In this document: piece after piece, positions 6,001 through 41,479 of the stretch | How the letters are laid out: each line of letters opens with the position of its first letter | Position numbering within the stretch: the first letter of the stretch is position 1 | Assembly: GCF_900116105.1 (NCBI RefSeq) | Contig: NZ_FPAC01000001.1 | Coordinates: forward strand, 2,098,862 to 2,162,861 | DNA: 64,000 nt | From: Paenibacillus sp. 453mf | GTDB lineage: Bacteria; Bacillota; Bacilli; Paenibacillales; Paenibacillaceae | Direction of reading: 5' to 3' | Position numbers and translations under genes: made by a program | The notes under the pieces: model-generated | Database searches by the model: none | Told to the model about the DNA's origin: nothing | Seen by the model: the letters and a program-made list of their open reading frames with translations, nothing else

Positions 6001-9000
6001 AATTGTGGAATACACTTTCCTTCTTCCGCAATCAGCCACTTTGCCCCGCTGTTCTCCAGCATGAAATGGAGCCTTTCATCTGGGAAGCTTGGATCTAGCG
6101 GAACATACGAAGCCCCAACCTTCAATACCGCCAATATAGAAACGATCATTTGAGGATTTCGATCAGTGAGCAACCCGACATAGCCGCCATGACGTATACC
6201 TTGTCTCCACAAGTAGCCTGCCATTCGAATGACACGGTCGTTTAATTCCTTGTACGTAATCTGCTGTTCTTGATACTTCAGGGCTGTATGTCCTGGTTGT
6301 TCTTTTACTCTTCGTTCAAATAGATCGATTAATGACAGATTATCCGGATACAAGGCCTTCGTTTGATTCCATTGTTTGAATTGCTCATATTCTGGCGCCG
6401 ACAGCATTTCGAGATCTTTTATTTTCGTATTTCGGTGGATAAGCATTTCGTTTAGAAGTCGTTCATAGTGAACGGCCATTCTCTTAATAGAATCCTCATT
6501 CCATAGATCGGAACAATATTCAATCTCTGCCATCATTCGCCCTTCTTCTACTTGCCATGCCCAGGTCATATCAAATTTTGCTTGCTGGCCTCGCCATTTC
6601 ATTGGCCGAACATTTAAATCCGGCAAAGCCGTACTATTCAATTTCATATCCTGGAGAACAAAAAGCGTGTCAAACAATGGATTTCTACTCGGACTAAAAG
6701 GAATGTTGAGCTTTTCGGTTAGACTGCTAAGTGAATAATCCCCGTGTTCAAAGGCGTCTAGTATATAATGTTTAAGGTTAGTAATATATTCGACTGCTGT
6801 CTTTGCTGAATCCGCTCTAACCCGAAGCGGCAGTGTATTCACAAACATTCCTATCGTTTGTTGAGTATCCGCATGGTTACGCCCAGCAATCGGCGTTCCT
6901 ACAACAATATCTTCTTCCCCTGTATACCTCGACAGTAGGATGTTATAAGCAGCAAGGAGCAGTGTGAAGGGAGTAGTACTATACTTTTCAGCTTCCTGCT
7001 GTAGAAGATGATAACTCTTCTCACCGAGCTCAAACCGATATATACTTCCCTGCGAGCTTTTGACTGCTGGGCGCTGATTATCCATTGGCAGCTCCGCTGT
7101 CCCTGCAAAATCCGAGTACTCCGTAAGCCAAAATTGCTCACTTTCTTCATAAGCTTTATCTTTAATCCGTTCGCTCTTCCATACCGCGTAGTCTTTATAC
7201 TGAACTCTGACTGGTTTTAAAGGAAGCCCTTGATATAAAGTCATCAGCTCGTCGTATAGCAGCTCGGTAGAAACCCCATCTGAAATAATATGATGAGTAT
7301 CGAACGCCAAGTAATGAAGCTCGGGATGGACGGTTAATAGAGATACCCGTAAAAGTGGGGCATTCTCCAATTGAAAAGGCTTTACAAATCCTGTCATCCA
7401 TTTGTTTAGGTAATCCTGTATGTTAACTTCCTCTGATTGGTCTTCCACAATAGAACGGGAGATTTGCCAATCAAGCTTACTCATATCGTATATCTTTTGA
7501 GAAAACTGACCTGATTCCAAATGAATCGATGTTCGTAATGCCTCATGGCGTCCAATAATTCGAACAAAAGAAGCCTCCAGCCTAGCGATATCAACGATGC
7601 CTTCAAGCTCAAACAGCATTGGCATATTATAGCTGAGTACAGCTTCTTCATGCTGATATGCATAATAAATCTGCTTCTGAAGATCGGTTAAAGGATACTC
7701 TGGCTGCTCAGGTCCGGATTGAATAGCCATGTGAGGCTGCAGGTCTGACTGCTGAATCCAAGCAGACATATCTGCGAGAATCGGCATTTGAAAAATATCA
7801 GACAAAGACATTTTGACATTAAATGTTTGATGAATTTTGCCCACGAGCATCATTGCTCTAAGGGAATGACCACCAATCTCGAAGAAATGATCGTGAATTC
7901 CGATTTTGCTAATACCTAGAACTTCTTCCCATAAGCTGACCAGTACTTTCTGCGTTTCATTGGTTGCAGGGGCATAGTTATCACCTTGTTTCAGTTCCAG
8001 CCTCGGCAATACTCGTCGGTTCACCTTGCCATTGCTCGTTAGAGGAAGCTCTTCAAGCAGCATGAAAATCGTAGGAATCATATAATCTGGCAAGTAAGGT
8101 TTAAGTTCATTCTTCCAGCTGGCAATGGTAAAAGGTGTTAGTTTTAGCAGCCGTTTATCTTCAGCTACAACATATGCACCTAAATAGGAATGACCTTGTT
8201 CATCCGTATTGGCGACTACAATCGTCTCTTGAACTCCCTCTAGCATTCGAATTCGGGCTTCAATCTCACCTAGCTCAACACGATGTCCTCTGATTTTCAC
8301 TTGCAGATCGATTCGTTCGACAAATTCAAGACTTCCATCCGAGAGTAATTTCACCCAATCTCCTGTTTTGTATAAACGGGACGACGATAAATTTGGGTCT
8401 ACAATGAATCGCTCAGATGTGAGCTCTGGCCTGCCCAAATAAGCAAGTGCTACACCATCCCCGCCTATATATAATTCACCCGGTACCCCAATGGGCTGTC
8501 GTTTGCCCGATTTGTTTAACACATAGAGCAAGGTGTTATTTGTCGGACGGCCAATTGGAACGTGGGACGCTGAGCTGATCTCATGAAATGTCGAGAATAC
8601 AGTCGATTCGGTTGGACCATACATATGAATAAGACGTCCTTCGCCAAGTACATCGAGTGCTCTTCCCACATGATTCACAGATACCTTCTCTCCGCCAAAC
8701 AGCACTTTTCTGGTTCCCAAAAAGCAGCTCGGGTCGAAGTCAATAAGTGTATTGAACAAAGCTGTCGTTAGGAAAAGAACCGTGATGTGCTGACTCGAAA
8801 TCACATCTGCCAAAGCTACAGCATGTAGCATCTCTGTACGCTCTATCAAGACAAGTGATGCACCATGGAGTAATGCGCCGAATATATCAAACGTTGCACC
8901 GTCAAAGGCATAGTTAGAAGCCTGGAGAAAGCGATCACTATCTTTAATCTGCAAATAACCGTTATTTATCATCGTCTTTACAACGTTACGGTGTGTCGCC

Positions 9001-12000
9001 AAAACTCCCTTTGGCGTCCCTGTTGATCCAGAAGTATACATAATGTATAGAGGCTGTGTAGATTTGATCTGACGGTAGTTTTCTAGATTGGAGCTAGATT
9101 GACCTGACCACAGCGCCGTATCGTAGTGTACGATTTCTCCTTCATAACCAGATACTTCATATTCATCAGATGCAATAACCAGGTGGGCTTGACTATCTCC
9201 GAGCATGAACAGTATCCGATCCTTCGGGAAGGTTGGATCGAGCGGAACATAAACGCCACCAGCCTTTATCACTGCCAGAATGGACACGATCATATCCATT
9301 GAACGATTCATCAATAGTCCCACACGCTCTCCTGGACGCAATCCTTTCTCAGATATATACCTTGCTAATCGATTAGCAGCTTCGTTCAGTTCTCTGTAGG
9401 ACATTTTGCTCGTGCCCATGATTAGAGCGTCTGCTTCACTTCTGATCCTGCTTTGCTGCTCAAATAATTCAGCGATGTTCAGATGTGCAGGATAATCCAC
9501 GCTGGTCTTGTTCCATTCGTCAAGCTGCTCTGCCTCAGTCGATGTCAGCAGCTCCACATCTCCGATACTTAGATCTGGAAATTCAAGAAGCTGGCTAAGA
9601 ATATGGAAGTAGTGATGAGCAATTCTGTGGATCGTCTCTGCTGTCCATAGATCCGTCCGATACTCAATTCCGAGGTCCATCCCCTCCTCAGTTGAAGAAC
9701 AAATCCATGTCATATCAAATTTGGAAGTGCCCTGATCCCATTCTGAATAGTGCACACTAAGCTCCGTATTAGCCAGCTGCTCCATTCCCTGGTCTTGTAC
9801 AACAAACATCGTCTCAAACAACGGATGACGTCTATGATCAGTAGATAGAGAAAGTCGATTAATTAATTTCTGTAAAGGGTACGTTCCGTGCTCAAACGCA
9901 GACAGGACTTGTTTATGAACAGAATCCAGGTATTCCCGAACGAGCATTCCTGGATCAGGAGTCGTCCGAATCGCCAGTGTGTTTGCAAACATTCCTGTCA
10001 GACTCTCTTCTCCCACTGCTCCCCTTAACGAGAAAGGTGTGCCAACCACGATGTCATCTTCTCCTGAGTATTTGGCGAGTAGAACCTGGAATGCCGCCAT
10101 CATTATCATAAATAAGGTATCGTGACGAGCGGCAGAGATCTGCCGCAATTTACTCTCAAGCTCAGCAGGCATTTCGAAGCGCAGACGCTGACCCTTGAAG
10201 CTCCGATGTACGGGTCTAACATAATCCGTAGGAATATCGATGACCGCTGGCTCATGCTTAAATTTGGACAGCCAGTAACGCTCACTGCTTTCGTAGCCCT
10301 TCTCATCCATTTCCGATTCCCAAACCGCAAAATCTTTATACTGAATACGAAGTTCTGGCAGCTGTTGATTCTCGTATAATGCGATCAAGTCCTTCAGTAG
10401 AATATGAATAGACATCCCATCCGAGATAATATGATGCATATCTAACAGAAGAACGTGATGATCATCGGCAAATGTCATAAGACCTGCTCTAAAGAGAGGT
10501 GCCTGTCCCAGATCAAAAGGAACAATGAATTGACTTGCAATTCGTTTAACTGCCTCATCCGATAATTCATGATGCCTTAACATTTCCTGTTGTAATACGA
10601 ACGGTTCTAAAGCTTCCACTTGATGTACTCTTTGACATAGCTCACCATTTTGTATCTCAAAAGACGTTCTAAGCACCTCGTGTCTTCGAATGAGAGCTAG
10701 TAAGCTCTTCACAAGCTTTTCTATCTTAAGTTCGCCCTTTAATTCCACAGTGATGGGCATGTTATAGCTTGTCTCGGCATTCTCAAATTGCTGAACGATA
10801 TATAGCCGTTTTTGAATAGAAGAAGCAGGGTAGAGATCCTGCACAGCTGCTGGCTGAATCTTTAATATGTCAGTTTTCTGTTTAGAAACCATCCATTCAG
10901 CCATTTCTCGTATCGTCGGAAGCTTAAATACATCCTGTAATGAAATATTGATTTCTAAGTTTTTTTGTATCTTTGCCGCGAGCATCATCGCTTTGAGTGA
11001 ATGACCCCCGATTTCAAAGAAATGTTCATCGATACCTATTCTCTGAACATGGAGTATTTCTTCCCATAGCGAAATTAATTTCTCTTCTAATTCATTCGTA
11101 GGTGCTATATAACTGTCGTTTTCCAGTTTCTCAGGTGCAGGCAATGCCTTATGATCCAATTTTCCATTAGAGGTTTTTGGAAGTGTACTTAAAGTAATAA
11201 AAGTACTTGGTATCATATACTCGGGAAGCGTTTGTCGTAATTGTTTTTTCCACTTTTGCACACTGTAGTCGGTTCCTTCCGGAACAACATAAGCGCATAG
11301 GTAAGAATGTCCATGCTGGTCACGCTGAGCGGTAACTACCGCCTCTTTGATCGAATCCGTTTCGGCAAGCTTCCCTTGGATTTCTGTCAGCTCCACTCGA
11401 TTACCGCGAATTTTCACTTGCTGATCAATTCTGCCTCTGTATTCCAGTAATCCATCAGGAAGCCATCTTACTAAATCTCCTGTCCGATACATTCTTTGGC
11501 CTGGTTCAAAAGGACATGGGACAAAGCGTTCGTCAGTTAGGTCTTGCTGGCTCAGATAACCTTCAGCCAGCCCGTCGCCAGTAACACAGAGTTCACCAGG
11601 AACACCTACGGGCTGAAGCTGATCCGCTTGATTAAGAACGTAAACCTTTGTGTTATGGATGGGTTTCCCAATTGGCACTGTATCGTAAGCCAACAAACTC
11701 CCGTCTACTGAATATGTCGCTGCGAAGACGGTTGTTTCTGTAGGTCCATATCCATTGACCAATCTGTTCTCTCCGAGTACTTCAAGCGCTCTTGCAACAT
11801 GGCTTTTAGAGGCGGCTTCTCCTCCGAAGAATAGCTTTCTTACATATTTAAGGCTGTGAACATCCCAATCGACAAGTGTATTAAATAAGGCCGCCGTCAT
11901 GAAGCAAGATGTAATTTTCTGTGTGAGCATTGTTTTGGCCAGTTCTTGAACGTTTAGCATTTGTTGTCTAGAAATAAGGATGAGAGAAGCACCGTTTAAC

Positions 12001-13469
12001 ATGGCTCCAAAAATCTCATAGGTTGATCCATCAAAAGCATAATTGGATAGCTGTAATATACGATCTGACTCCTGTACGTCCATAAATCCGTTGTTAACCG
12101 AGGTTTTGACAATATTACGATGGGTTGTCACTACCCCTTTTGGCTTTCCAGTAGAACCCGAAGTATACATAATATATGCAGGGCACTCAGCTGAAATGGA
12201 ATAAGCCGGGATCAGAACCTCTGTCATCTCTTTTACATTATTTACGTCATCAATGGAAAGGATCTTTCCATCATAATCTTTTATAATTTGTTCTTTATCC
12301 GCAATAAGCCAACTTGCCTTGCTGTCGGTGAGAATATTGCTGATCCTTTCATTTGGAAAAGCAGGATCAATCGGGACATAGATACTGCCTGTTCTTAAGA
12401 TCGCGAATATAGAAATGATCATTTCCATCGAGCGATCGGCTAACATACCAATCGTGTCTCCGGATCTTACTCCCTTCTTCAGCAGAGCCGAAGCCACAGA
12501 TTCAATACGCTGATCAAGCTCTCTGTATGTTAGTTGCTCATCTCCCATAATAAGAGCTGGGTGATCTGGATACATCAATACTTGCTTCTTAAACAAGCTA
12601 ACAATAGAATCATTTCTCGGATATGCTGCAGTTGTGGCATTAAACTGCTCAAGCTTCTCTTTTTCTTCCATGGTCAATATTTTTGCCGTATCTAAGATAC
12701 TATCCGTCTGATGGATCATGCAATCCATAATCTTGAGATATACGTCAAAAAGCCGATCAGTGAAGTCCCTTTCGTACATGGATACCATCTTGACAGATAA
12801 TTCGCCAAGCGTTACTGAGACGCTAAAATCTAGTAAAGTGTTTGTTCTTTCGAAGCTAAAGGGCATAAAATCAAACAAACCTTCATTAAGTGTTTCGTAA
12901 ACATGGAAATCTATAAAATTGAAAGCAGTATCGAAGAATGGATTTTCCATGTTGCTTTGTTCTTCTTCCACAGCTTTTTGGATTTGAACTAAAGAAAGTC
13001 TTCCGTACTTTTTTAGTTCATTTTGCTTGACTTGAACGTACTGTACTACTTCTCCCCAACTCATACCTGGATGGAAAATCGTACGGAGCGGAACCGTATT
13101 TAAGAAGCATCCCAACATGCGAGCTCCATCTTGAGAGACTGGTCGACCATTTTCTACAAGGCCGATCAAGATATCATTTTCATATGAGAACATGTACAGT
13201 GAACTGATGTAGGCAGCTAAACATATGGATTTTACAGTGACTTTTTGCTGTTGTGCAGCTCTCTGCAAATGGTTATACCGATCTGAAGATAGTGTCTTGA
13301 TGGAAGTGCTTGATTCATTAACCTTGCTTAATCTTGGCTGTTCAGGGAATTCATATTTGCGATAATCACTCAGCTCAGCACGCCAGTAATCGAACATCTC
13401 TTGATTCGAAGAAAGGGCCAGCTGTTCAATTACATAATCTCTGTAGGTTGACTTTATGGGATTAAGCAA
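78..13469 (-). CDS. Giant NRPS subunit: (half C)-A-T-C-A-T-C-A-T-C-A-T-E-docking tail
   Basis: This 4463-residue nonribosomal peptide synthetase adds four amino acids. Approximate layout: C-terminal lobe of a condensation domain (1-270); A (285-790), T (800-870); C (885-1320), A (1340-1835), T (1845-1915); C (1930-2365), A (2385-2880), T (2890-2960); C (2975-3410), A (3425-3925), T (3935-4005); epimerization domain (4020-4430). Carrier motifs are GGHSL three times and GGDSI before the epimerase, as expected. The C domains carry HHIISDG, HHIISDG and HHIASDG; the E domain has HHLIIDGVSW and FNYLGQF. The last 30 residues (SDLTFDELDDIEDIIKEL) look like a donor COM docking domain. All four A domains have FDG(S/A)T at the A4 position. 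By eye, the specificity residues resemble aliphatic (Ile/Val/Leu) codes. The start is a TTG with a GGAGG site 9 bases upstream, overlapping the previous stop by 8 bases; it falls inside a C domain, so the break may be a frameshift. Confidence 0.93.
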   Translation of the reverse strand: MLNPIKSTYRDYVIEQLALSSNQEMFDYWRAELSDYRKYEFPEQPRLSKVNESSTSIKTLSSDRYNHLQRAAQQQKVTVKSICLAAYISSLYMFSYENDILIGLVENGRPVSQDGARMLGCFLNTVPLRTIFHPGMSWGEVVQYVQVKQNELKKYGRLSLVQIQKAVEEEQSNMENPFFDTAFNFIDFHVYETLNEGLFDFMPFSFERTNTLLDFSVSVTLGELSVKMVSMYERDFTDRLFDVYLKIMDCMIHQTDSILDTAKILTMEEKEKLEQFNATTAAYPRNDSIVSLFKKQVLMYPDHPALIMGDEQLTYRELDQRIESVASALLKKGVRSGDTIGMLADRSMEMIISIFAILRTGSIYVPIDPAFPNERISNILTDSKASWLIADKEQIIKDYDGKILSIDDVNNVKEMTEVLIPAYSISAECPAYIMYTSGSTGKPKGVVTTHRNIVKTSVNNGFMDVQESDRILQLSNYAFDGSTYEIFGAMLNGASLILISRQQMLNVQELAKTMLTQKITSCFMTAALFNTLVDWDVHSLKYVRKLFFGGEAASKSHVARALEVLGENRLVNGYGPTETTVFAATYSVDGSLLAYDTVPIGKPIHNTKVYVLNQADQLQPVGVPGELCVTGDGLAEGYLSQQDLTDERFVPCPFEPGQRMYRTGDLVRWLPDGLLEYRGRIDQQVKIRGNRVELTEIQGKLAETDSIKEAVVTAQRDQHGHSYLCAYVVPEGTDYSVQKWKKQLRQTLPEYMIPSTFITLSTLPKTSNGKLDHKALPAPEKLENDSYIAPTNELEEKLISLWEEILHVQRIGIDEHFFEIGGHSLKAMMLAAKIQKNLEINISLQDVFKLPTIREMAEWMVSKQKTDILKIQPAAVQDLYPASSIQKRLYIVQQFENAETSYNMPITVELKGELKIEKLVKSLLALIRRHEVLRTSFEIQNGELCQRVHQVEALEPFVLQQEMLRHHELSDEAVKRIASQFIVPFDLGQAPLFRAGLMTFADDHHVLLLDMHHIISDGMSIHILLKDLIALYENQQLPELRIQYKDFAVWESEMDEKGYESSERYWLSKFKHEPAVIDIPTDYVRPVHRSFKGQRLRFEMPAELESKLRQISAARHDTLFMIMMAAFQVLLAKYSGEDDIVVGTPFSLRGAVGEESLTGMFANTLAIRTTPDPGMLVREYLDSVHKQVLSAFEHGTYPLQKLINRLSLSTDHRRHPLFETMFVVQDQGMEQLANTELSVHYSEWDQGTSKFDMTWICSSTEEGMDLGIEYRTDLWTAETIHRIAHHYFHILSQLLEFPDLSIGDVELLTSTEAEQLDEWNKTSVDYPAHLNIAELFEQQSRIRSEADALIMGTSKMSYRELNEAANRLARYISEKGLRPGERVGLLMNRSMDMIVSILAVIKAGGVYVPLDPTFPKDRILFMLGDSQAHLVIASDEYEVSGYEGEIVHYDTALWSGQSSSNLENYRQIKSTQPLYIMYTSGSTGTPKGVLATHRNVVKTMINNGYLQIKDSDRFLQASNYAFDGATFDIFGALLHGASLVLIERTEMLHAVALADVISSQHITVLFLTTALFNTLIDFDPSCFLGTRKVLFGGEKVSVNHVGRALDVLGEGRLIHMYGPTESTVFSTFHEISSASHVPIGRPTNNTLLYVLNKSGKRQPIGVPGELYIGGDGVALAYLGRPELTSERFIVDPNLSSSRLYKTGDWVKLLSDGSLEFVERIDLQVKIRGHRVELGEIEARIRMLEGVQETIVVANTDEQGHSYLGAYVVAEDKRLLKLTPFTIASWKNELKPYLPDYMIPTIFMLLEELPLTSNGKVNRRVLPRLELKQGDNYAPATNETQKVLVSLWEEVLGISKIGIHDHFFEIGGHSLRAMMLVGKIHQTFNVKMSLSDIFQMPILADMSAWIQQSDLQPHMAIQSGPEQPEYPLTDLQKQIYYAYQHEEAVLSYNMPMLFELEGIVDIARLEASFVRIIGRHEALRTSIHLESGQFSQKIYDMSKLDWQISRSIVEDQSEEVNIQDYLNKWMTGFVKPFQLENAPLLRVSLLTVHPELHYLAFDTHHIISDGVSTELLYDELMTLYQGLPLKPVRVQYKDYAVWKSERIKDKAYEESEQFWLTEYSDFAGTAELPMDNQRPAVKSSQGSIYRFELGEKSYHLLQQEAEKYSTTPFTLLLAAYNILLSRYTGEEDIVVGTPIAGRNHADTQQTIGMFVNTLPLRVRADSAKTAVEYITNLKHYILDAFEHGDYSLSSLTEKLNIPFSPSRNPLFDTLFVLQDMKLNSTALPDLNVRPMKWRGQQAKFDMTWAWQVEEGRMMAEIEYCSDLWNEDSIKRMAVHYERLLNEMLIHRNTKIKDLEMLSAPEYEQFKQWNQTKALYPDNLSLIDLFERRVKEQPGHTALKYQEQQITYKELNDRVIRMAGYLWRQGIRHGGYVGLLTDRNPQMIVSILAVLKVGASYVPLDPSFPDERLHFMLENSGAKWLIAEEGKCIPQFMGAVLSMSEPADYAEDSFISTRTYATAADPAYIMYTSGSMGQPKGVITTHRSIVNVCCNNGHVELGPEDRMLQLSNYAFDGSTFDIFGTLLNGATLVLLPSTMLQDVSVLSSTIRNENITVQFMTTALFNTLVEYDLDSLKSLRKIIFGGEAASYQHVLKALDTLGEHRMINAYGPTETTVFASMYSVDHYIKITRNIPIGRPIKNTRLYVVNANDQLQPVGIPGELYIAGDGLAEGYLGQPELTSSKFIDVFQEKERSYRTGDIVKWLPNGDLAYISRADGQLKIRGNRIEADEVENAINSLPGVSEAVAKGHRDRNGTSMLVAYVVCHPRFGFSEDELMMGWKQELRTILPEYMIPSVFILLESLPLTHNGKVDRRALPEPAMTASSSYVEPVTDIEIELANLWSDLLGIESVGSADSFFLLGGHSLKAMMLAARIYERWEVKLALPELFNAGTLAEMSRLIEKGHKQKYNPIPMAAEQVSYPVSSAQKRLYLIEQFEETNNSYNMPIVMKMKGKLIVERLELALRKLIHRHESLRTSYGMDDGEVRQRIHSINEIEFELIRGENTQGLSSDIYIESCLGEFIRPFDLSEAPLIRAGLYDLSNDEYVLLLDTHHIASDGISTGILYQDLIKLYEGQALEPMSIQFKDYATWHNHRRSEPDYLASEQFWVSKFKESPAVIDILTEGRRPVRRGFEGAVYSFELDSQLYKRLKELSTRTNSTLFMVLLAGYNVLLSKYTAEKDIVVGTPVAGRYHSDTASIAGMFVNTIALRNCVEGHYEVDEWIKLIRTATLQAFEHGAYPLDELIEKLRMNRDPGRNPLFDTMFVLQDAKPEAAHLSQLDIESLEWATRTAKFDMTWAVHDNDGLLKMTVEYSTELYQAEQIDRMTQHFVHILDQMTSQPKGQLHQLKLITVEEEKQILECFNNTGASYPRSKNIIELFEEQALSRPDHAAVHFNEESLTYSELNRLTRQFAAVLIDKGLRPGTAVGLRAERSIEMIVGILGILRAGGAYVPIDPSYPDERAAYMLNNSGATILAAPSGTIINGFNGVYAPLEPLHWSNSEAINGDIVLIHPDMPAYIMYTSGSTGEPKGVVTTHQNVVKTSINNGFVVLTPEDRILQLSNYAFDGSTFEIFGSLLNGSTLIVIRKEDVLDIAKLAEIIEKEHVASFFITTTLFNALVDYDVTSLKHIKRVFVGGEATSKPHMKSAYEYLGANRIANGYGPTETTVFATTYNVDETLHTMHSVPIGRPIHNTRTYVVSEEGHLQPIGIAGELYIAGEGLAQEYLGEPEMTHTRFASIPSLNEPRVYRSGDKVKWLPDGSLEFISRIDHQVKIRGHRIEPGEIETRLMEHPLVKEAVVIARKADTGHYLCAYLVNSANLSTQEVRRFLQERVPEYMIPSYFIFIAQLPLTRNGKLDHRALPDPDLDLIQESYVAPQTEEEIVLSEVWSEVLGVTQMGVDDNFFTLGGDSIRSIQIVSKLAKLKWKLQVKHLMLYPTIAECALYLERTEIKRESSRLMVGEIPLTPIQIWFFEQNFVDEGHFNQSMMLYNARGWNEQVLRDSFAQLIAEHDALRIRFTKENAVTKQIVCPLDQGPFYTLDTFELEEHTDYDAQMEYLATAIHSQMDIASMLCKLGIFRTDQGDHLLIAIHHLIIDGVSWRILIEDLMQIYNAMLAGEEPYILDNTDTYFDWSHRLAAQAARGDYQREASYWKEIEERAVALHSRKQVPCTYKDSATLSMELDAAVTLQLLTEVHRAYHTEVNDLLLSALAMTYETEILIHLEGHGREDLVDGSDLSRTIGWFTSIYPVILSSSQDLGDTLRNMKEMLRSIPNKGAGYGVLKYLTTDMGEALNASNADIVFNYLGQFENHENNRDDHFSPMPMGELISPLNRMTHHEEWNCVISKSKFKLTYRYNPEVIGENTANLRLEQFNSHLKSLINHCIDREEEYTPSDYTDSDLTFDELDDIEDIIKEL

Positions 13470-15918
13470 TGACTTCTTCCTCCTTCAACATGCCGCATAA
13501 ATTTAATAACTCAGACATAAAGACAGCTACGCTCCAGCCATCGAGTATCGCATGATGAAAGATCCAGCCAATATACGTTTCTTCATTCGAAGTAAATAGT
13601 ACAATTCTCCATAGAGGCGCTTGATGAATATCAAAAGGCTGCTCACGATCTTTTATTAAATAATTCGTAATTTCCGATTCCACGTCCGAGGAGGTTAATC
13701 GTACTTCCCTCACTTCAAAATTGACTTGCTCACAAACATATTGAACAGGCACAGGAAAATCAGAGATATTGAAGCCTGTACGCAAAATAGAATGCCTGCT
13801 GGCTAGAACACTCATGATCTCATGTAGCTTAGAGGTTGTTACTTGAAGCCCATTAATACGGTATATGAATTGGTCGTGATACACCCCTTCGCCTTGATGC
13901 TTTATGTAGTGAAAGACCATGCCTTGTTGAATGTCGCTCATAGGGAACAGATCCAGAACGTGTTGTGGAAGAAATGAACGATATAACGGGTTTTCCATCC
14001 ATTCCTTTCTTTGTTCGATCAGCTTTGCTTTTATTATTCTTTTTTCTTCATCGATTGTATTCGTTACTTTACTGTTCCGAATCAAGCTTCTAATCGTTGG
14101 GTATTTATATAAATCAATGATTTCCATACTCGTACCAAGCTCTTTATTGGTCATACTTATAAGCTCGATTGCCCTGATCGAATCCCCGCCTAGTTCAAAA
14201 TAATTACTTTCTACACCCATATTGGTGTGATGAAGAAGCTCTTGCCAAATACGGAGCATATTTTCTTCCATGAGGCTCTCTGGCAGGACGAGCTCGGCTG
14301 TCTTATTCGACTCAGAAAGAGCACCGGGGGTCGGTAGTAACTTCACATCCACTTTATTGTTTGTAGTCATAGGTATCTCTTGCATGTGGAAAAAGTGAGC
14401 TGGAAGCATATACTGGGGAAGATGCAGTGACAAATGTTTTCTTAGATCCCCAGCTTGGTGAGAGCGTTCAGATACATAATAGGCGCACAATTTATCTTCA
14501 TTGAACCGGTCCTTTTTGACAGTTACGACTGCTTGCTGAACCCCATCGAATTGCAACAATCTGGATTCTATTTCACCTAATTCAATCCGATAGCCTCTAA
14601 TTTTAACCTGATGATCCATCCGGCCAAGATACTCTAGTTCACCATCCATATTCCAACGGGCTAAATCTCCTGTCCGATATAAACGCTTACCAGGAAGGAA
14701 AGGAAGCGTTACAAAACGAGCTTCTGTCAGTTCCGGCCGATTTATATATCCTCTTGCAACCCCATCTCCTGCGACATAGATCTCTCCCTCTACACCGATA
14801 GGCACAAGTTCACGTTTATCATCTACAATATAGATTTGAAGGGTAGGAATCGGTTTCCCAATCTTACTGGCACGACTGTTTATTTCTATCATACCTATCT
14901 CTTTATATGTGACGTGAACCGTTGTCTCCGTAATACCATACATATTAATCAGCTTCGTTTTCGGAAAATGCTGATTAAAGCTGGCTAACATTGCAGGCTG
15001 AAGCGCCTCACCACCAAAGATGACCGTCCGTACTTTAAGGCTGCTATTCTTAACCGTTAATGCGATCCTAGCCAGCTGATAAAATGCAGTGGGCGTCTGA
15101 TTGAGCACGGTTACCTGCTCTTCTTGCAACAAATGAAGAAATTTAGCCGGCTCACGGGACACAGCTTGTGGAACAATTACCAGAGTGCCGCCATACAATA
15201 GGGCTCCGTACATTTCCCAGACAGAAAAATCAAAGCAGAAAGAATGGAACAAAGTCCATACATCCTTCTCGCTAAAGTCAAATAAATTTCTATCATTAAA
15301 TAGAAGCCGTACAACATTCCGGTGCTCTATCATTACTCCCTTGGGTTGTCCTGTTGATCCGGAAGTATAGATGATGTAAGCAAGGTCTGAGGATGCACTC
15401 GTATGATGTTGAACGGCTGGCTGACTATAACCTGGCAAGATGGTGACATCGTTTGGATTTACGACAGGGATATCCAATCCTTCTGGAACCAGCGAAATAT
15501 CCTGAGCGATACATAGTACGGCTCCACTGTCCTTCAGCATGTAACTGATCCGGTCTTCAGGATACTCCGTGTCAATCGGCATATAAGCAGCGCCTGCTTT
15601 TAGTACAGCGAGAATTGAAATGACCATATCCATCGTTCTTGGACAGAGAATGCCTACAATTTGGTTTGGCGTTATACGTCTTGAACGAATAACCTCTGCT
15701 AATTCGTCCGCTCTGCTATTCAGCTCATCGTAGGTCAGCTGCTGATCTTCAAATTTGATAGCAATACGGCTGCCGGATTGTAGTACTTGTCTCTCGAACA
15801 AAGTCTGAATCGTCATCTCTGAGGGGTAATTAGCATGCGTATCGTTAAAATCATAAAGAAGTCTTCGCCTCTCCTGATCGGGCATGAAATTTAAACTAGA
15901 CAGTTTGATAATCAACAA
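13462..15918 (-). CDS. NRPS module: A (threonine-type)-T-(N-terminal half of C)
   Basis: This subunit has an adenylation domain (roughly residues 30-535), a carrier domain with the FELGGDSI motif, and the N-terminal lobe of a condensation domain with HHAILDG at its very end; it stops about 25 residues later. The matching C-terminal lobe is at the start of the next reading frame. Pocket residues read by eye from the A4-A5 region are D-F-W-N-I-G-M-V-H, which is the well-known threonine signature. The frame is open up to 16032, but codons above about 15920 duplicate the end of the upstream gene in another frame. In-frame starts are TTG at 15918 (behind GGAAGGGG) or ATG at 15885 (no ribosome site), and neither is convincing. 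The protein probably continues the upstream AL-T-C polypeptide through a one-base frame change. Start uncertain, identity certain. Confidence 0.88.
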   Translation of the reverse strand: MLIIKLSSLNFMPDQERRRLLYDFNDTHANYPSEMTIQTLFERQVLQSGSRIAIKFEDQQLTYDELNSRADELAEVIRSRRITPNQIVGILCPRTMDMVISILAVLKAGAAYMPIDTEYPEDRISYMLKDSGAVLCIAQDISLVPEGLDIPVVNPNDVTILPGYSQPAVQHHTSASSDLAYIIYTSGSTGQPKGVMIEHRNVVRLLFNDRNLFDFSEKDVWTLFHSFCFDFSVWEMYGALLYGGTLVIVPQAVSREPAKFLHLLQEEQVTVLNQTPTAFYQLARIALTVKNSSLKVRTVIFGGEALQPAMLASFNQHFPKTKLINMYGITETTVHVTYKEIGMIEINSRASKIGKPIPTLQIYIVDDKRELVPIGVEGEIYVAGDGVARGYINRPELTEARFVTLPFLPGKRLYRTGDLARWNMDGELEYLGRMDHQVKIRGYRIELGEIESRLLQFDGVQQAVVTVKKDRFNEDKLCAYYVSERSHQAGDLRKHLSLHLPQYMLPAHFFHMQEIPMTTNNKVDVKLLPTPGALSESNKTAELVLPESLMEENMLRIWQELLHHTNMGVESNYFELGGDSIRAIELISMTNKELGTSMEIIDLYKYPTIRSLIRNSKVTNTIDEEKRIIKAKLIEQRKEWMENPLYRSFLPQHVLDLFPMSDIQQGMVFHYIKHQGEGVYHDQFIYRINGLQVTTSKLHEIMSVLASRHSILRTGFNISDFPVPVQYVCEQVNFEVREVRLTSSDVESEITNYLIKDREQPFDIHQAPLWRIVLFTSNEETYIGWIFHHAILDGWSVAVFMSELLNLCGMLKEEEVIA

Positions 15919-18900
15919 CCCCTTCCAATATTGTTGTGTAAAAATCCAGCAGCCTCTCGATCGTCTCTCTCCGGTATAAATCCGTATTATATTCCATTCG
16001 CAGCTTGAGCACGTCAGACTCCTCATACACATGAAGTATTAGGTCATACTTTGAAGTATCGCCTGTTTCAATTTTCATATGGGCTGTGGTCTGTCCTAAC
16101 GCATATTGATGCGTAAATTCGTTTTGCAGCGTAAACATCACTTGAAGGGGAGAACGAAGTGAACCTGACTCTCTCTCTGAAATGTTGTTCAGCACCATTT
16201 CCAAAGGCACATCTTGGTGTTGATAAGCTCCAAGGGCTGTGTTTTTCACTTGATCCAGCAGTTCGTCAAATGTCATCTCATCCGCAATCTCTACTTTCAT
16301 AACGACTGTGTTCGCAAGGAAACCGATGAGTTTATCTGTATCTGGCCTGTTTCTATTCGCCATCACTGTCGTAATAGGTAGTTCTGCTTGTCCAGTGAAT
16401 CGATGGATCAGGTAAGAGTAGGTCGCGAACAAGAGCATAAAAAGTGTTGTGTTCGTTCGAGCTACTTTCTCGTAAGCCAGTTTGGTAACACGAGGGCTAA
16501 CGATTTTTTCGAGTGTATCCCCAGCAAATCTCGGATTTTCAGTTGATAGAGTATCAGATGGCACCTGCAAGGACATATTTTCTCCTTCTATGTGCTTTTT
16601 CCAATACTCTGCTTTACGATATAAAAATGAGGACGAGGTGTTCTCTAGCTCGGATTGCCATAAGATGTAATCAGAGTAGCTCACCGTTTCAGCCTGTTCC
16701 TCTATATTTCCGTGTAAATAGAGATGTATGAGTTCGTTCGTAAAAATCTCAACTGACCAGCCGTCTGACATAATATGATGCATGGACACAACCAGCGTAT
16801 GGTCTTCTATGCTATTAGCTAATAAAGTACAGCGAATGCAATGGTCATTGATAAGGTCAAAGCGTCTGTTTGCCTCGTTCTTAATGTATGTGTTACGGTG
16901 CAGCTCTCGTTCTTCCTCACTCCACTCTTTCAAATCTACAAATTGAACGTAAGGCACGACATGATCCTCGATATACTGATAGGGACTATTGTTATCCACA
17001 CCGAATCTAACTCGCAGTGCTTCATGTCGTCCGAATAAAGTTAGAAGACTTCCATAGAGTGTGTCATATTGAAGTTCACCTTGAAACCTGATAGAGAATG
17101 TGGAAGTGTAGAATGGGCTGTCCGGGACCATCATATGCAAGAACCATTGACTCTTTTGTTTAAGTGTCAGGGGCAGCCTCTCACTTTTATGAGATCGGAC
17201 GGGTATCGTTAAGAACTCCTCTTGCTCCTCTGCGTCACTCAACAACTCTAACAAGCCGGCTACTGTTGCCTGTTTAAAGAATTGTGCAGCAGTGATCTGA
17301 ATAGAATACCGTCTATAAATCATTGTGATCAGCTTGGACATTTTAAGAGAATCGCCACCTAGCTGAAAAAAATCCTCGTGTTCGGACAGTTCCGTTAAAC
17401 CTAGGACCTTACAGAAACAATCAGCCAAAAAGGCGGCCTTCTCTTCTGTATTCTGGTCCTTTCCTACTCCTTTTGCTTGAATACGGTATAATTCGATCCG
17501 GCTTGGATTGAGATGGTTCTCTTCCAATAAATTTCTTATGGCCAAATAAAGAGCAGATTCCGAAATTAATCCTTCATCTAAGGAGTACTGAACCCTCACC
17601 CGAGTATTTTCATCGATTGTATCGGTAATAGTCTCCTGTTCTTCTTGAATTTTTTCTATTAATCTACTCTTCTGTACACGTTCTTCTATTAACTGTTCCA
17701 ATTCATATAGCAGCTCGTCGTAACAACCCTGCATTAAATCACTCACAAGCTGCAGCCTCTGGATCTTGCCGGTAGGCGTACGGTGGAAATTCTCTCTCCT
17801 GACCGGAATTACATATCTCGGATAAACTCCAAACTGTCTTGAAATAACTCCTCTTAGATGTTGTATAAGTAAGATGCTGAAATCAGGTTCGTTGTGTATC
17901 GGACTAAAAAACAGTAATAGATGATCATTTCCATTCTCTCCTCCGGACATGCCAGCAGCAGCTACATATCCAGGAACGATTCCTTCGACTTCTTTCAAGG
18001 CAGCTTCAACTTCAAAGTTATATACATTCTTGGCGTTAATAATAAGAACATCTTTCTCTCTTCCAGTGAGGATAAGACTTCCGTTTTTTACAAAGCCAAG
18101 ATCACCTGTTTCAAACCATCCATTCTCTGTAAATGCTTCCTTCGTTGCAGCCTCATTCTTGTAGTAACTGTCAATGACTGTACTTCCTCTGAGATGCACT
18201 TTGCCAACCACGCCTTCACCAAGCTCAGATCCATTCGGATCCGAGATACGAAGCTCTACTCCTGGGATGACATTTCCAACCTCAGCAAAAGCTACGGACG
18301 TATTGCTGTCATTCCCTTCACCAAATATTAAATGATCCTCCAGGCTGTCTTTGCGAACGAAATATACTCCCGTTGATGGAGAGTCATCTAGTTGTTGTCC
18401 AAAGCATAAGCTTCCTGAAAATTCGGACATTCCATAAGCGGGAATAATGCAGTGATTACTTAATCCAAAACGAGCTAGTTTTCTTAGAAAGTTTTTCGCT
18501 GTCATCACTGAAATGGGCTGACCTACATTTAATAGGATTCTTACTGAAGACAAATCCCAATGATCATCAATACTTTCTTCGTTGAGTTGATTGATCTGAT
18601 CGTATCCAAAATTAGGAGACCAGGAAAAGGTCACCCGATGCAAGCTCATATCCTCCAGCCATACAGCCGGACGTGATAGAAAACGCTCAACAGGACTTAG
18701 AACTTGTTCGCTGCCGATCACCATGCCAAGAATATGGTTGGTTAGAAGACCTCCTGCATGATACAGTGGCATCCAATTTAAAGTGACTTCATTCTCAGTT
18801 AATTGTAAATGTCGCTGAATACCAATGATGTTGGATAATATATTTGAATTTCTGTAAGAAACGCACTTTGGAATGCCAGTTGTGCCTGAGGTGAATAGGA

Positions 18901-19618
18901 ACATAGCATAGTCCTCGGCATTCGCTGGATGACGATATGAAGAAGGGATGGATTGAAGCAAATCGTTCGTTGATACGATTCTGTCCGTCGCATGATGAAG
19001 TGGTTGATCGGTTACGATCAGTGGAGATTCGAGGAGAACTTGCACCTTCTCGAATTTTTTTCTTTCTGCGTGATTAGCTGAGAGCTGCAATGTGTTTTTC
19101 ATAGGTGCTGGGAGAAACCCGCCCATGATGCAGCTCCAGAAGAGGATAACAAAGTGATCAATTCTTTCGATCTGGAAAATGACTTTATCACCTGGTTTAA
19201 GCCCTTGAGCAACAAGTCCGCCAAGCATCCGCTCCGCCTGCAGTGATAACTCAGCGTAATTCGAAGTTATGATTTCGCCACTGTTTAAATAGTAATGAAT
19301 TTTTTTGGCGGGAAACTTAAGGACCGTTCGATCGAAAGCTTCAATTAAAGTATGCGGGTCACTCTCGTTCCAAGTTAACGGCTTCCCTATTAGAAGAGAT
19401 GAATGCTGCTCATTCGGTCCACTTAATTCCTCCCTCAACTTCACTGTCGGCTTGGAATATGTAAAATGCTCCCCCCTCGTTAGTAAAACGGAGGCTGGGT
19501 TACGGTTTGTATCATCTAAGCAGGCTAAACTGGTTTGTTTTTCATGGAGAGTTACCTTTACATTAGTTAGCTTATAAAGTTGTCGAATACGTTGTTCAAG
19601 CAAGCAGGCTAACATCAT
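15896..19618 (-). CDS. NRPS loading subunit: acyl/aryl-AMP ligase-T-C
   Basis: This 1240-residue protein opens the assembly line. Residues 1-90 are an unassigned leader. An AMP-ligase domain (about 95-640) follows, with FTSGTTGIPK (A3), WMPLYHAGG, YGMSE (A5), TGD (A7), GREKDVLIINAKN (A8) and TPTGK with the catalytic lysine (A10). A carrier domain (about 745-815, FQLGGDSLK) and a condensation domain (about 840-1235, MHHIMSDGWS) complete it. The WMPLxHxGG motif belongs to starter acyl-ligases of hybrid PKS/NRPS systems rather than amino-acid A domains, so it should load a carboxylic acid. Genes for 4-aminobenzoate synthesis lie directly upstream, making PABA the best candidate; a fatty or other aryl acid is the alternative. 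AGGAGG lies 9 bases before the ATG, and the gap to pabBC is 15 bases. The frame ends (TAG) exactly at the C-A linker and the next frame continues the protein. Confidence 0.88.
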   Translation of the reverse strand: MMLACLLEQRIRQLYKLTNVKVTLHEKQTSLACLDDTNRNPASVLLTRGEHFTYSKPTVKLREELSGPNEQHSSLLIGKPLTWNESDPHTLIEAFDRTVLKFPAKKIHYYLNSGEIITSNYAELSLQAERMLGGLVAQGLKPGDKVIFQIERIDHFVILFWSCIMGGFLPAPMKNTLQLSANHAERKKFEKVQVLLESPLIVTDQPLHHATDRIVSTNDLLQSIPSSYRHPANAEDYAMFLFTSGTTGIPKCVSYRNSNILSNIIGIQRHLQLTENEVTLNWMPLYHAGGLLTNHILGMVIGSEQVLSPVERFLSRPAVWLEDMSLHRVTFSWSPNFGYDQINQLNEESIDDHWDLSSVRILLNVGQPISVMTAKNFLRKLARFGLSNHCIIPAYGMSEFSGSLCFGQQLDDSPSTGVYFVRKDSLEDHLIFGEGNDSNTSVAFAEVGNVIPGVELRISDPNGSELGEGVVGKVHLRGSTVIDSYYKNEAATKEAFTENGWFETGDLGFVKNGSLILTGREKDVLIINAKNVYNFEVEAALKEVEGIVPGYVAAAGMSGGENGNDHLLLFFSPIHNEPDFSILLIQHLRGVISRQFGVYPRYVIPVRRENFHRTPTGKIQRLQLVSDLMQGCYDELLYELEQLIEERVQKSRLIEKIQEEQETITDTIDENTRVRVQYSLDEGLISESALYLAIRNLLEENHLNPSRIELYRIQAKGVGKDQNTEEKAAFLADCFCKVLGLTELSEHEDFFQLGGDSLKMSKLITMIYRRYSIQITAAQFFKQATVAGLLELLSDAEEQEEFLTIPVRSHKSERLPLTLKQKSQWFLHMMVPDSPFYTSTFSIRFQGELQYDTLYGSLLTLFGRHEALRVRFGVDNNSPYQYIEDHVVPYVQFVDLKEWSEEERELHRNTYIKNEANRRFDLINDHCIRCTLLANSIEDHTLVVSMHHIMSDGWSVEIFTNELIHLYLHGNIEEQAETVSYSDYILWQSELENTSSSFLYRKAEYWKKHIEGENMSLQVPSDTLSTENPRFAGDTLEKIVSPRVTKLAYEKVARTNTTLFMLLFATYSYLIHRFTGQAELPITTVMANRNRPDTDKLIGFLANTVVMKVEIADEMTFDELLDQVKNTALGAYQHQDVPLEMVLNNISERESGSLRSPLQVMFTLQNEFTHQYALGQTTAHMKIETGDTSKYDLILHVYEESDVLKLRMEYNTDLYRRETIERLLDFYTTILEGVVDYQTV

Positions 19619-19633
19619 TCAATGCTTCCTCCT

Positions 19634-21430
19634 TCAACTCAGCGTATAATTGAGTTCATGAATAACTTGATCGAGGCTTTCTTGTGTTATATCAATGGAG
19701 ATCCAGCCTCGAACACTATTAATAAGCCATATCTGCGATGCCTCAATTATATCCCGCATCGTAAGGACTCTTTCAACTACCAATCCGCTCTGGACAAGCT
19801 CGTTTCGAAGCGTACCTCCCAGAAGTCCACAATGAATCGGAGGAGTGAACTTCATATTATTGATTTCAAAAACGACATTCCCGGTTGTAAACTCTGTTAT
19901 TTCCCTATTTTCGTTCCACAGAAGAACATCATAGGCTTGTCCTCTTTTTTCGTAATGTTCATTATAGATCTCCCGATACGTTGTTTTATGATAAAGAAAA
20001 CGGTTAGCTGATGAAATCGGAGATTGAGCTAAAACGGCTTCATTCACACCATTTCTATTAGTAATAGGCTCGTTATTTATATTAAAGCTTCCGTTCTTGG
20101 ACAGCAGCAGTCTTGTTTTCCAGATCCCATCCTTATGCTGGGTTGAATGCTGTAAGAGTGCTTGCCTAATTAAATCCCAATTTCCTTCATACTCAAAATA
20201 AGCAGCAGAATTCTTCATTCTTTGAAGATGAGGGTCCAGCAAATCATATATTCCATTTTCGAGTCGGATTGATTCCAACAGCTGAAATTCCGGTCTAACT
20301 TCAGTTAATAGCAAAGCCTTTGTTCTAGCCTCTTGATATTCTTCCTCTGCTGTAGAGTCCCAAGTAATACCGCCACCCACACCATATTCAGCTTGATCTG
20401 TCCGGTGGTCTATCCAAACCGTTCTAATTGCAACATTAAATATAACCGATCCATCTGGATTGATTACGCCAATGGACCCGCAATAAATCTCTCTGGGGGT
20501 ATGCTCCAGTTCCTGTATAAGGTGCATCGTGCTGATTTTTGGAGCACCCGTGATGGATCCACACGGAAACAAAGCTTTAAAGGTATCAAATAGACCTGTA
20601 TCTTCCTTTATATTAGCCGTTACCGTAGAGGTCATTTGAAACAGTGTGTAATACTTCTCAATATCAAATAAGCTGGGTACATCTACACTCCCTGGCTCAG
20701 CGATAACTCCAAGATCGTTCCTCAACAGGTCTGTAATCATTACATTTTCCGCTCGATTCTTATCAGAATTACGTAACCATTCAGATAAAACCTTATCCTC
20801 TTCCAAGGTAACGCCGCGTCTAACGGTTCCTTTCATCGGGCGGGTTTCAATCTGTCTGCCTTTTTTCTTAAAGAACAATTCGGGAGAGGCACTCAGAATA
20901 CTAAAGTCTCCCATGTGAAGCATTGCTGAATAATCTGCTTGCTGGGCAAGACACAATCTTGTGTAGAAGTTATAAGGATTACCTTCAAATGAAGATCGGA
21001 GCCGCATGGTATAGTTAACTTGATATGTATCTCCACGTCTTATTGCTTCATGGATTTGACGTATGTGGTCATTGTATGTGGTTTCTTCTATGGTAGGACT
21101 CCACGCTGAGACCTCAAACTTCTCGCATTCAAAGTGAACTTCGCCGCCATGATCATGATCAAAAATTCCAAACCAGAGTAGAGGTAAAACGGTATTCTGA
21201 TGAACCCTGAATGCTGAATCAAATGCAGGGGCGGCTTCATAAGAAACATAGCCAGCTGCATAATATCCCTCTTTTGTGTACTGCTCAACTCTTTGTAATG
21301 CTTCTTTAACTTCTGAAACGTTCCTTGCCATAATAACTTCTCGTGGATTGCTAAATACTTTCCGTTGCTTACACTTCTCTTCATTTACGAAATCCAAAAT
21401 GATATAGGGATTGTCCTTATTAAAGTTCAT
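19634..21430 (-). CDS. pabBC: Fused aminodeoxychorismate synthase component I / 4-amino-4-deoxychorismate lyase (PabB-PabC)
   Basis: The 598-residue protein converts chorismate plus ammonia to aminodeoxychorismate (PabB part, about 30-380) and then to 4-aminobenzoate and pyruvate (PLP-dependent PabC part, about 385-598). The synthase part carries PMKGT; a lysine in this motif marks PabB, whereas anthranilate synthase has PIAGT. It also has the CGSITGAPK and GGGITWDS motifs. The lyase part shows YHKTTYREIY with the probable PLP lysine, and EFTTGNVVFE. It follows pabA by 33 bases (AGGAGG, then ATG) and precedes the NRPS loading gene by 15 bases, so it is in the NRPS operon and not in a folate operon. 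I infer that it supplies PABA to the starter ligase. An ordinary folate duplicate is the alternative. Confidence 0.92.
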   Translation of the reverse strand: MNFNKDNPYIILDFVNEEKCKQRKVFSNPREVIMARNVSEVKEALQRVEQYTKEGYYAAGYVSYEAAPAFDSAFRVHQNTVLPLLWFGIFDHDHGGEVHFECEKFEVSAWSPTIEETTYNDHIRQIHEAIRRGDTYQVNYTMRLRSSFEGNPYNFYTRLCLAQQADYSAMLHMGDFSILSASPELFFKKKGRQIETRPMKGTVRRGVTLEEDKVLSEWLRNSDKNRAENVMITDLLRNDLGVIAEPGSVDVPSLFDIEKYYTLFQMTSTVTANIKEDTGLFDTFKALFPCGSITGAPKISTMHLIQELEHTPREIYCGSIGVINPDGSVIFNVAIRTVWIDHRTDQAEYGVGGGITWDSTAEEEYQEARTKALLLTEVRPEFQLLESIRLENGIYDLLDPHLQRMKNSAAYFEYEGNWDLIRQALLQHSTQHKDGIWKTRLLLSKNGSFNINNEPITNRNGVNEAVLAQSPISSANRFLYHKTTYREIYNEHYEKRGQAYDVLLWNENREITEFTTGNVVFEINNMKFTPPIHCGLLGGTLRNELVQSGLVVERVLTMRDIIEASQIWLINSVRGWISIDITQESLDQVIHELNYTLS

Positions 21431-21463
21431 TAAACGGTAGCCTCCTATAAGTGCCGGTTAGTA

Positions 21464-22063
21464 TTAAACATACTTTAATTCTGTTGCTCGTTTCTGTACG
21501 GAATAGATTTGGAGAAAGTTGTTTAATATTTGTTTACCGTAGGGAGTAATAATGGATTCGGGATGAAACTGTACACCTTCGATATCATACTTCCGATGTC
21601 TAAGTGCCATGACTTCCCCTGCCTCAGACGTCGCCGTCACTTCGATATCATCTGGAACCTCATGATGAACGATTAGGGAATGATATCTTGCTACCGTCAG
21701 GGGGTTTGGAAGATTCTGAAAGAGACCTTTGCCCTCATGTTGGATAAGGGATGTTTTACCATGCATAGGTCGATCTGCAGGTCTGACTTCAGCCCCAAAG
21801 GCTTGTCCAATTGCTTGATGACCAAGGCAAACGCCGAGTATTGGAACTTTTCCAGCGAAGTAGTTGATGAGTTCTAGAGAGATTCCCGCATTCGAAGGAT
21901 TGGAAGGACCTGGAGAAATGACAATGTAATCTGGATTTAAAATTTCTAATGCATTTAATGTAATGGAATCATTTCTATATACTGTGACCTGTTGTCCAAG
22001 TTCAGATAAATACTGCACTAAGTTGTATGTGAATGAATCAAAGTTATCAATTATAGCAAGCAT
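21464..22063 (-). CDS. pabA: Aminodeoxychorismate synthase component II, glutamine amidotransferase
   Basis: This class I glutamine amidotransferase gives ammonia to PabB. The motifs are complete: IDNFDSFTYNL at the start, SPGPSNP, GVCLGHQ with the nucleophilic cysteine, and FHPES with the catalytic His and Glu. The length (199 residues) is normal for PabA/TrpG. Two ATGs lie close together. The upstream one touches the AGGAGG site, so the second, at 22063 and six bases after AGGAGG, is the likely start (protein begins MLAIIDN). It is the first gene of the NRPS operon. The lysine-type PabB next door makes this PabA rather than TrpG. Confidence 0.93.
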   Translation of the reverse strand: MLAIIDNFDSFTYNLVQYLSELGQQVTVYRNDSITLNALEILNPDYIVISPGPSNPSNAGISLELINYFAGKVPILGVCLGHQAIGQAFGAEVRPADRPMHGKTSLIQHEGKGLFQNLPNPLTVARYHSLIVHHEVPDDIEVTATSEAGEVMALRHRKYDIEGVQFHPESIITPYGKQILNNFLQIYSVQKRATELKYV

Positions 22064-22101: not shown

Positions 22102-22119
22102 AGACTGACCGTCCGGTCT
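22102..22119. promoter_or_regulatory. TetR-type operator, copy 1 (perfect palindrome core)
   Basis: The stretch AGACTGACCGTCCGGTCT contains the perfect 12-base palindrome GACCGTCCGGTC. The AGACTGACnnnnCGGTCT shape is typical of TetR-family operators. It sits about 40 bases before the pabA start, where a bound repressor would block transcription. No TetR gene is in the window. Confidence 0.5.
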
Positions 22120-24404: not shown

Positions 24405-24454
24405 TTCACCATCCCTTTCTAAGCTGTCATTAGCTAAGTTCTGTGTACTTGGGC

Positions 24455-41452: not shown

Positions 41453-41479
41453 TAAGCTTCACTCCTTCTCCCATGACTA

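Follow-up and report, generated by a model that had tools for sequence, protein, structure and literature searches.

The window analyzed here is a stretch of 64,000 nt from Paenibacillus sp. 453mf (assembly GCF_900116105.1, contig NZ_FPAC01000001.1, positions 2,098,862-2,162,861; a genome of 5.24 Mb, labeled G000 below), which carries on its minus strand a nonribosomal peptide synthetase (NRPS) cluster headed by genes for synthesis of 4-aminobenzoate (PABA). The gene order is pabA, pabBC, g1 (AMP-ligase, carrier and condensation domains; AL-T-C), g2 (adenylation and carrier domains followed by the N-terminal half of a condensation domain; A-T-C(N-half)) and g3, followed beyond the window by g4 and then by TetR-like, MFS and stand-alone type II-like thioesterase genes. 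Bar one weak partial match, all 13 PF00668 rows of the G000 genome lie inside this cluster, which is thus its only recognizable NRPS locus. We consider it likely that the start of the operon is dedicated to making PABA and loading it onto the NRPS, and that the second C domain of the line is made as two halves that reassemble. The genes and domains concerned are as follows, C_C denoting the C-terminal half of a C domain and E an epimerization domain.

21464..22063, minus strand: pabA, glutamine amidotransferase subunit of aminodeoxychorismate synthase (Pfam GATase, E 4.7e-62; alternative start at 22069)
19634..21430, minus strand: pabBC, fused aminodeoxychorismate synthase component I and lyase (PF00425 Chorismate_bind, E 3.7e-87; PF01063 Aminotran_4, E 7.2e-30)
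15896..19618, minus strand: g1, loading subunit AL-T-C, 1240 aa (Pfam AMP-binding, PP-binding, Condensation)
17660..19399, minus strand: AL domain of g1, 6ULW/McyG-like (phmmer against PDB chains; trees)
17240..17431, minus strand: T domain of g1, predicted PABA holder (Pfam PP-binding, residues 730-793)
15914..17182, minus strand: C domain of g1, predicted to condense PABA with Thr (Pfam Condensation, residues 813-1235)
13462..15918, minus strand: g2, A(Thr)-T-C(N-half) (Pfam; code DFWNIGMVH in all nine clusters described below)
78..13469, minus strand: g3, C_C-(A-T-C)x3-A-T-E, 4463 aa, with four hydrophobic-type A domains and a COM-like tail, TPSD (Pfam; codes)

Among 394 genomes of the family, 11 contain a match to g1 at E <= 1e-120, of which two are ligase-only (G121 and G218) and nine are full-length (G000, G065, G263, G271, G268, G004, G070, G029 and G115). 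All nine, spread over three genera, keep the order pabA-pabBC-g1-g2-g3-g4, with g4 incomplete in four of them where the fetched stretch or the contig ends. Identity to the AL-T-C protein of G000 ranges from 50 to 81% among the full-length homologues, and an arrangement kept at that distance in nine genomes of three genera is more than chance. The synteny of pabA, pabBC and AL-T-C that an earlier note, made from the sequence alone, had suggested looking for is therefore present in every full-length homologue. Likewise, PABA genes are linked to an AL-T starter in all nine, which is the gene linkage of a candicidin-like, PABA-primed line.

Genes for PABA supply

Gaps of 33 bases between pabA and pabBC and of 15 bases between pabBC and g1, together with the Pfam domains listed above, bear out the earlier proposal that pabA, a fused pabB-pabC and an AL-T-C subunit form one operon with 15-33 bases between genes. 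In all nine clusters, PabA retains the motifs GVCLGHQ and QFHPES, and PabBC retains RPMKGT and the pyridoxal phosphate-lysine region. PabBC also passes the TIGR00553 pabB cut-off (363.8 vs 328.4 bits). Between them, the two proteins thus have the domains of an aminodeoxychorismate synthase and lyase (GATase, chorismate-binding and class IV aminotransferase fold), and the catalytic residues are in place.

The lysine-type motif had been read in the earlier note as marking synthesis of PABA and not anthranilate. The motif itself is present, and it speaks for PabB, but lack of it does not exclude PabB: a separate, folate-type locus of G000 contains a pabB/trpE-like enzyme with the alanine-type motif PIAGT that falls under every cut-off (458.9 vs 517.7 for TrpE; 393 vs 408.6 and 310.8 vs 328.4 for the PabB models). 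For these two reasons, we do not rely on the lysine motif as sole proof of PabB. We take the enzyme to be the folate PabB, a role assigned from its neighbors, which include a PabA and a dihydropteroate synthase above their NCBIfam cut-offs and a PabC-like lyase slightly under its own (296.2 vs 308). A trp operon, in which TrpE and the adjoining TrpD both score above the NCBIfam cut-off, lies elsewhere in G000. In all, the genome encodes three chorismate-binding enzymes, two besides PabBC; the four other genomes tested encode 4 (G065), 3, 3 and 3.

Given the folate-type pab locus and the trp operon elsewhere in the genome, the pab copy of the cluster is additional. It is neither linked to folate genes nor the sole source of PABA, in agreement with the earlier claim that this is not a folate operon; the objection raised with that claim, that this might be the only pab locus and needed for folate, falls away. 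Furthermore, a PabBC-like match at E <= 1e-110 is lacking in 377 of the 394 family genomes, indicating that this type of PabBC is not a general folate need in the family. Ten PabBC-like matches lie outside the nine clusters. As candidates for further NRPS starters, five were rejected (G127, G146, G014, the second copy in G268, and G256:C1), none having an NRPS motif within 19 kb; the neighborhoods of G260, G256:C6, G270, G261 and G309 stand outside that check. By eye, the locus of a pabA-pabBC pair in G256 (L062, 8519-10885) is of another kind: ABC transporters, a methyltransferase and a nucleotidyltransferase-like gene accompany the pair, which may serve a further pathway that uses PABA. In G127 (L058, 8607-12109) and G146 (L059, 8940-11682), again by eye, a His-rich protein of metal-binding appearance is encoded close to a PabBC-like gene.

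The loading subunit and its probable substrate

The g1 proteins of all nine clusters carry the motifs A3, A8, the A10 lysine, GGDS and HHxxxDG. By phmmer, the closest relatives of the AL domain among PDB chains are 6ULW (394 bits), 6ULX (388 bits) and the loading A domain of McyG, 4R0M (319 bits), compared to 171-173 bits for 7R7E-G, the best polyketide synthase (PKS) ligase, and 138 bits for the fatty-acyl-AMP ligase (FAAL) 3PBK. The AL is thus not FAAL kin, and the fatty-acid-type ligase that the earlier note had set against PABA priming is not what the sequence comparison finds. The AL appears to fall in a branch of enzymes for small or aromatic acids, apart from the FAALs of lipopeptides, and PABA is a plausible substrate. 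Moreover, all nine other A domains of the line read as amino-acid types, which leaves the AL as the likely PABA loader. For 4R0M, PMC11751314 mentions a phenylalanyl adenylate. 6ULW presumably has a ketoreductase, whereas Pfam finds none in g1; to judge from its sequence, the AL may be flanked by a pseudo-Asub-like region, as in 6ULW.

The nine pab-linked ALs form a single clade (100/100) in both of two trees. The first contained 12 of 18 rows tried, including 3 outside rows, the 6 absent rows being outside rows as well, and the second contained 16 of 19, including 7 outside rows, with G581, G733 and G691 left out; G581 is in neither. Both the clade and the outside AL loci read (G581, G733, G121 and G526), which show no pab motif in 13-20 kb, speak for the PABA start. 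In these trees, G268 (genus g9) groups with G115 (g3) and not with G263 and G271 (g9), which group weakly with G000 and G065 (g1), and these groupings hint at transfer of the cluster between genera.

Two points weigh against PABA as the starter. We take 6ULW to select keto acids and McyG to select phenylpropanoids, neither of which is PABA. The best other relatives of g1 across 398 genomes drawn from the whole class were those of G581 (35%) and G733 (33%), with no pab motif in the 13 kb read. The AL-T-C relative of G581 therefore has no pab genes in view, and since such relatives exist, the AL-T-C architecture is not in itself a mark of PABA. Among 10 genomes of the family of G581, no further member besides G581 itself was found.

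If PABA were instead the tail of the peptide, the AL would load some other keto, hydroxy or aryl acid of small size, and free PABA would supply the amine onto which the terminal C domain releases the peptide. The nearest solved relatives of the AL, 6ULW and McyG, fit this arrangement, as does g4 (outside the window; 4655 aa, four A and five C domains), which ends in a C domain and in which no thioesterase domain was found. However, the pab genes stand directly before the AL gene in all nine clusters, with the terminal C domain at the opposite end of the line, and we regard a PABA tail as rather unlikely. Quite improbable, in our estimation, is an ordinary lipopeptide line in which the AL is a FAAL and the pab genes merely boost folate. 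Of the 101 NCBIfam matches that g1 has, the 25 best do include fatty-acid ligase subfamilies, those shown all being below their cut-offs, but FAAL bit scores are less than half of the 6ULW/McyG scores, folate has its own pab locus, and the pab genes are missing from none of the nine clusters.

With PABA as starter, the reading that we prefer, PabA and PabB would convert chorismate to aminodeoxychorismate, from which PabC would release PABA, as their families and intact motifs indicate. The AL would then adenylate PABA and load it onto the T domain of g1, and the C domain of g1 would link it to Thr on g2.

Two out-of-frame gene borders and a divided condensation domain

Absent from the earlier note are two conserved out-of-frame breaks inside the interval 13462..22063, one of which divides a C domain; this conserved split is of interest comparable to that of the PABA finding. 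In all nine clusters, two NRPS gene borders are out of frame by +1, namely g1-g2 (junction 1) and g2-g3 (junction 2):

13462..13486, minus strand: junction 2, with a Shine-Dalgarno (SD) sequence GAAGGAGGA at 13478-13486, the g3 TTG start at 13467-13469 and the g2 TAA stop at 13462-13464; 8-nt overlap
13465..13977, minus strand: C_N, N-terminal half of the split C domain, with HHAILDG (residues 3-168 of 171 match 2VSQ (SrfA-C) 5-173)
12675..13469, minus strand: C_C, C-terminal half of the split C domain, starting just before the C4-like YRDYV (residue 3 matches 2VSQ 178)
15896..15925, minus strand: junction 1, an out-of-frame C-A gene break with a ribosome-binding-like motif, AAGGGG, then TTG TTG ATT ATC in the next frame; stop TAG

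The break at 13462 falls between HHAILDG and the C4-like YRDYV. Compared to McyA (8JBR), C_N reaches residue 176 at query residue 166 and C_C sets in from residue 189 at query residue 8, so that the two halves map to neighboring residues of SrfA-C and of McyA alike. The two open reading frames (ORFs) jointly encode one gapless C domain, with nothing lost or added, and are thus a naturally split C domain. Both halves are complete and under purifying selection: in three genome pairs, the ratio of nonsynonymous to synonymous substitution (dN/dS) was 0.14, 0.28 and 0.24 for C_N and 0.08, 0.15 and 0.20 for C_C, compared to 0.15, 0.22 and 0.17 for the next intact C domain. Outside the nine clusters, C_C had 43 matches, with loci given for 11; in all 11 (34-43% identity to C_C) the domain is unsplit, with no stop at that place. 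No other C domain is broken across two ORFs in G000 or G065; in G268, where 98 of 133 candidates were scored, the split halves themselves do not show in the list. One split in the ancestor of the cluster family, retained since, is the simplest reading.

Decay or sequencing error might instead account for the breaks, the cluster being dead in G000, and a neighboring MFS-like gene (23186-24479) does lie in two ORFs in this genome. Sequencing error was rejected since the same breaks occur in nine genomes. The identical break positions, together with dN/dS values of both halves like that of the next intact C domain, likewise render a dead cluster exceedingly improbable.

The g3 start at junction 2 occupies the same site in all nine clusters, as TTG in four and GTG in five, and the g2 stop is TAA, TAG or TGA. 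In each cluster, this start is preceded at 5-8 nt by the end of an SD that pairs with the anti-SD at -11.5 to -12.4 kcal/mol. As background, 1% of 500 random sites in one g3 reach -9.5 kcal/mol, and the corresponding place in the 11 unsplit relatives gave -2.5 to -7.9 kcal/mol in ten and -12.0 in one (G283). The overlapping TTG or GTG is the sole start codon after the upstream in-frame stop in five genomes. In G004, G070, G029 and G268, however, another in-frame start (GTG or ATG) lies 24-27 nt upstream, and the g3 start used is accordingly not settled in these four, which counts against initiation at the overlap. Between G000 and G065, the synonymous difference drops toward the gene ends, to 0.22 over the final 15 codons of g2 and 0.10 over the final 12 codons of g1, compared to 0.36-0.57 further up, all of these being short stretches.

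At junction 1, the sequence AAGG[AG]GTTGT is present in all nine clusters, as well as in G581 (AAAGGGGTTGTTCAAAATTAAA). Frame 0 of g1 ends LEGVV[DE][YH]..., while the next frame reads L[LS]xIKLSSLN, and no canonical start codon at normal spacing is common to all clusters. The start of g2, uncertain within 15918-15907, may be the TTG close to the SD or an AUU/AUC nine bases after it; the ATG chosen by the ORF caller at 16032, inside g1, is probably not used. In G581, which belongs to another family, the same out-of-frame C-A border follows the AL-T-C subunit (L071, 13126-13419); no C_N match above 34% identity was found in this genome, whose contig ends there. In G733, C runs into A in one ORF.

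Both breaks could alternatively be programmed +1 frameshifts, the NRPS being made as longer chains. The +1 offset at both junctions in nine of nine clusters is what this would give, as is the gapless fit of the C-domain halves to SrfA-C and McyA. At junction 1, moreover, seven of the nine clusters have GGG_G, on which a +1 slip could occur; this weighs against separate starts there, and G581 has the same GGG_G. In G263 and G271 the sequence is GGA_G, which spoils the slip yet improves the SD. Frameshifting at junction 2 is disfavored by the conserved start, the SD and the variable stop: a slip has no need of a start codon that alternates between TTG and GTG, of an SD spaced as for initiation or of a stop that may be any of the three, and ten of the 11 unsplit relatives lack a comparable SD, G283 having one. 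We hold programmed frameshifting, on the whole, to be unlikely, but less clearly so at junction 1, given that the clusters share no canonical start codon at normal spacing there. In the reading that we favor, the second C domain is predicted to be translated in two halves, as separate polypeptides, from genes that overlap and are translationally coupled; the halves would reassemble into an active domain that doubles as the contact between g2 and g3, and across which the chain would pass.

Predicted peptide, surroundings and known systems

Codes were read for 79 A domains across the nine clusters, the final K of each code being appended by script; G263 and G115 are one A domain short in this list (contig end; motif missed). 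Nine of the 79 have the code DFWNIGMVH, which we take to specify threonine, and one is cut off at the end of its stretch (G268). The other 69 are all of the DG[FY]F type, presumably for hydrophobic residues, except two, both in G115. The window contains a single E domain, at the end of g3:

153..1442, minus strand: E domain of g3 (profile match)

These codes and the E domain agree with the earlier expectation of threonine followed by several hydrophobic residues, one of them D-configured. The predicted chain is PABA-Thr-X4-X4, with X hydrophobic and residue 5 after PABA in the D form. Following transfer to g3, four hydrophobic residues would be added, as judged from the observed codes, and the last would be epimerized. 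The TPSD tail of g3 may then meet g4 by a COM-type contact (compare the relevant part of PMC11546977), and g4 would add four more hydrophobic residues. The terminal C domain, the stand-alone thioesterase or both might release the product, perhaps as a ring via the Thr hydroxyl; the stand-alone thioesterase would act as an editor. Tentatively, and with less confidence than for the PABA start and the two reassembling halves, we suggest that the split C domain is a natural g2-g3 docking device and that the terminal C domain closes a hydrophobic PABA-nonapeptide ring via the PABA amine or the Thr hydroxyl. In G000, the 70-residue core stretches of the last two g4 A domains (L005, A domains 3 and 4, about 7400-11600) are identical, a sign of recent module duplication.

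A putative regulatory site lies upstream of the operon:

22107..22118, minus strand: GACCGGACGGTC, inverted repeat with 5-bp half-sites, before pabA (template match)

The template GACNGNNCNGTC has exactly two exact sites in 83.6 kb of G000, GACCGGACGGTC ahead of pabA and GACTGACCAGTC ahead of the TetR gene, which lies downstream of the NRPS genes, and the same exact-repeat pair occurs in G065. GACCGGACGGTC is thus a possible operator of the TetR/QacR-like regulator of the cluster, as far as its sequence and position suggest. Against such a role, the repeat before pabA is found with one mismatch only in G004, G070, G029 and G115 and was not found in G263, G271 and G268, while 28 sites with at most one mismatch occur in the 83.6 kb of G000, so that such sites are weak. 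In G004, G070 and G029, no such site was seen ahead of the fifth gene.

Upstream of the operon, the MFS-like gene in two ORFs (281 and 145 aa) appears broken and adjoins a ROK-family regulator gene. ORF sizes upstream of pabA vary among the ORF lists of G000, G065, G004, G263, G268 and G115, which suggests that pabA is the border of the cluster. Further upstream, 25705-28838 holds an FhuB-type hydroxamate siderophore permease (above cut-off) and an FhuD-like binding protein, and the GC-richer region 39161-51176 holds a molybdenum hydroxylase large subunit, two amidohydrolases and a gamma-glutamyltranspeptidase, perhaps for purine or ureide catabolism.

The candicidin/FR-008 system is a PABA-primed PKS with its own PABA genes and a carboxylic-acid ligase starter that loads PABA. 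The present cluster is alike in principle, having its own PABA genes and an AL starter, a likeness of gene content, but it is an NRPS, its PabC is fused to PabB, and its host is Paenibacillus. Albicidin also contains PABA building blocks; in albicidin, cystobactamids and lapcin, A-domain modules use PABA inside aryl chains, whereas a single PABA cap before nine amino acids is predicted here. PABA building blocks are described for the NRPS-made cystobactamids in PMC7966384 and for lapcin in PMC8837603. In the open-access PMC literature, we found no report that describes this cluster or a Paenibacillus peptide containing PABA, nor did we meet a PABA-nonapeptide ring as a product class; the 'PabA' in PMC7829367 is a lanthipeptide PabA and not a PABA peptide. 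Across nine genomes and three related genera, the cluster points to hydrophobic peptides with a PABA cap as a family yet to be explored, for which labeled PABA is a built-in feeding handle.

As a divided C domain, the present case is new and widely conserved, although not the first on record. In the bulbiferamide NRPS of Microbulbifer, according to an extract of PMC10616845, C domains are divided over two polypeptides in producing strains; that system is a ureidopeptide cluster, and the likeness, a C domain on two genes, is known by description and not by sequence or break site. Corallorazine biosynthesis involves an A domain on two ORFs that is active in vitro once both halves are mixed (PMC11342130, in part), and thus shares with our cluster one NRPS domain over two ORFs, the domain being A there and C here. 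The engineered XU and XUC cuts lie in the C-A linker and inside the C domain (sections of PMC11546977, PMC10212144 and PMC10443035), and an NRPS whose C-A linker was cut and then bridged by synthetic zippers retained about 30% of the yield (a section of PMC10443035). Compared by region, the two natural breaks of the cluster lie in these same two regions, where NRPS engineers cut and paste modules, and they provide a conserved natural test of whether a C domain cut into two chains still works. Engineered XU and XUC pieces are mostly fused again, whereas the halves encoded by this cluster stay apart.

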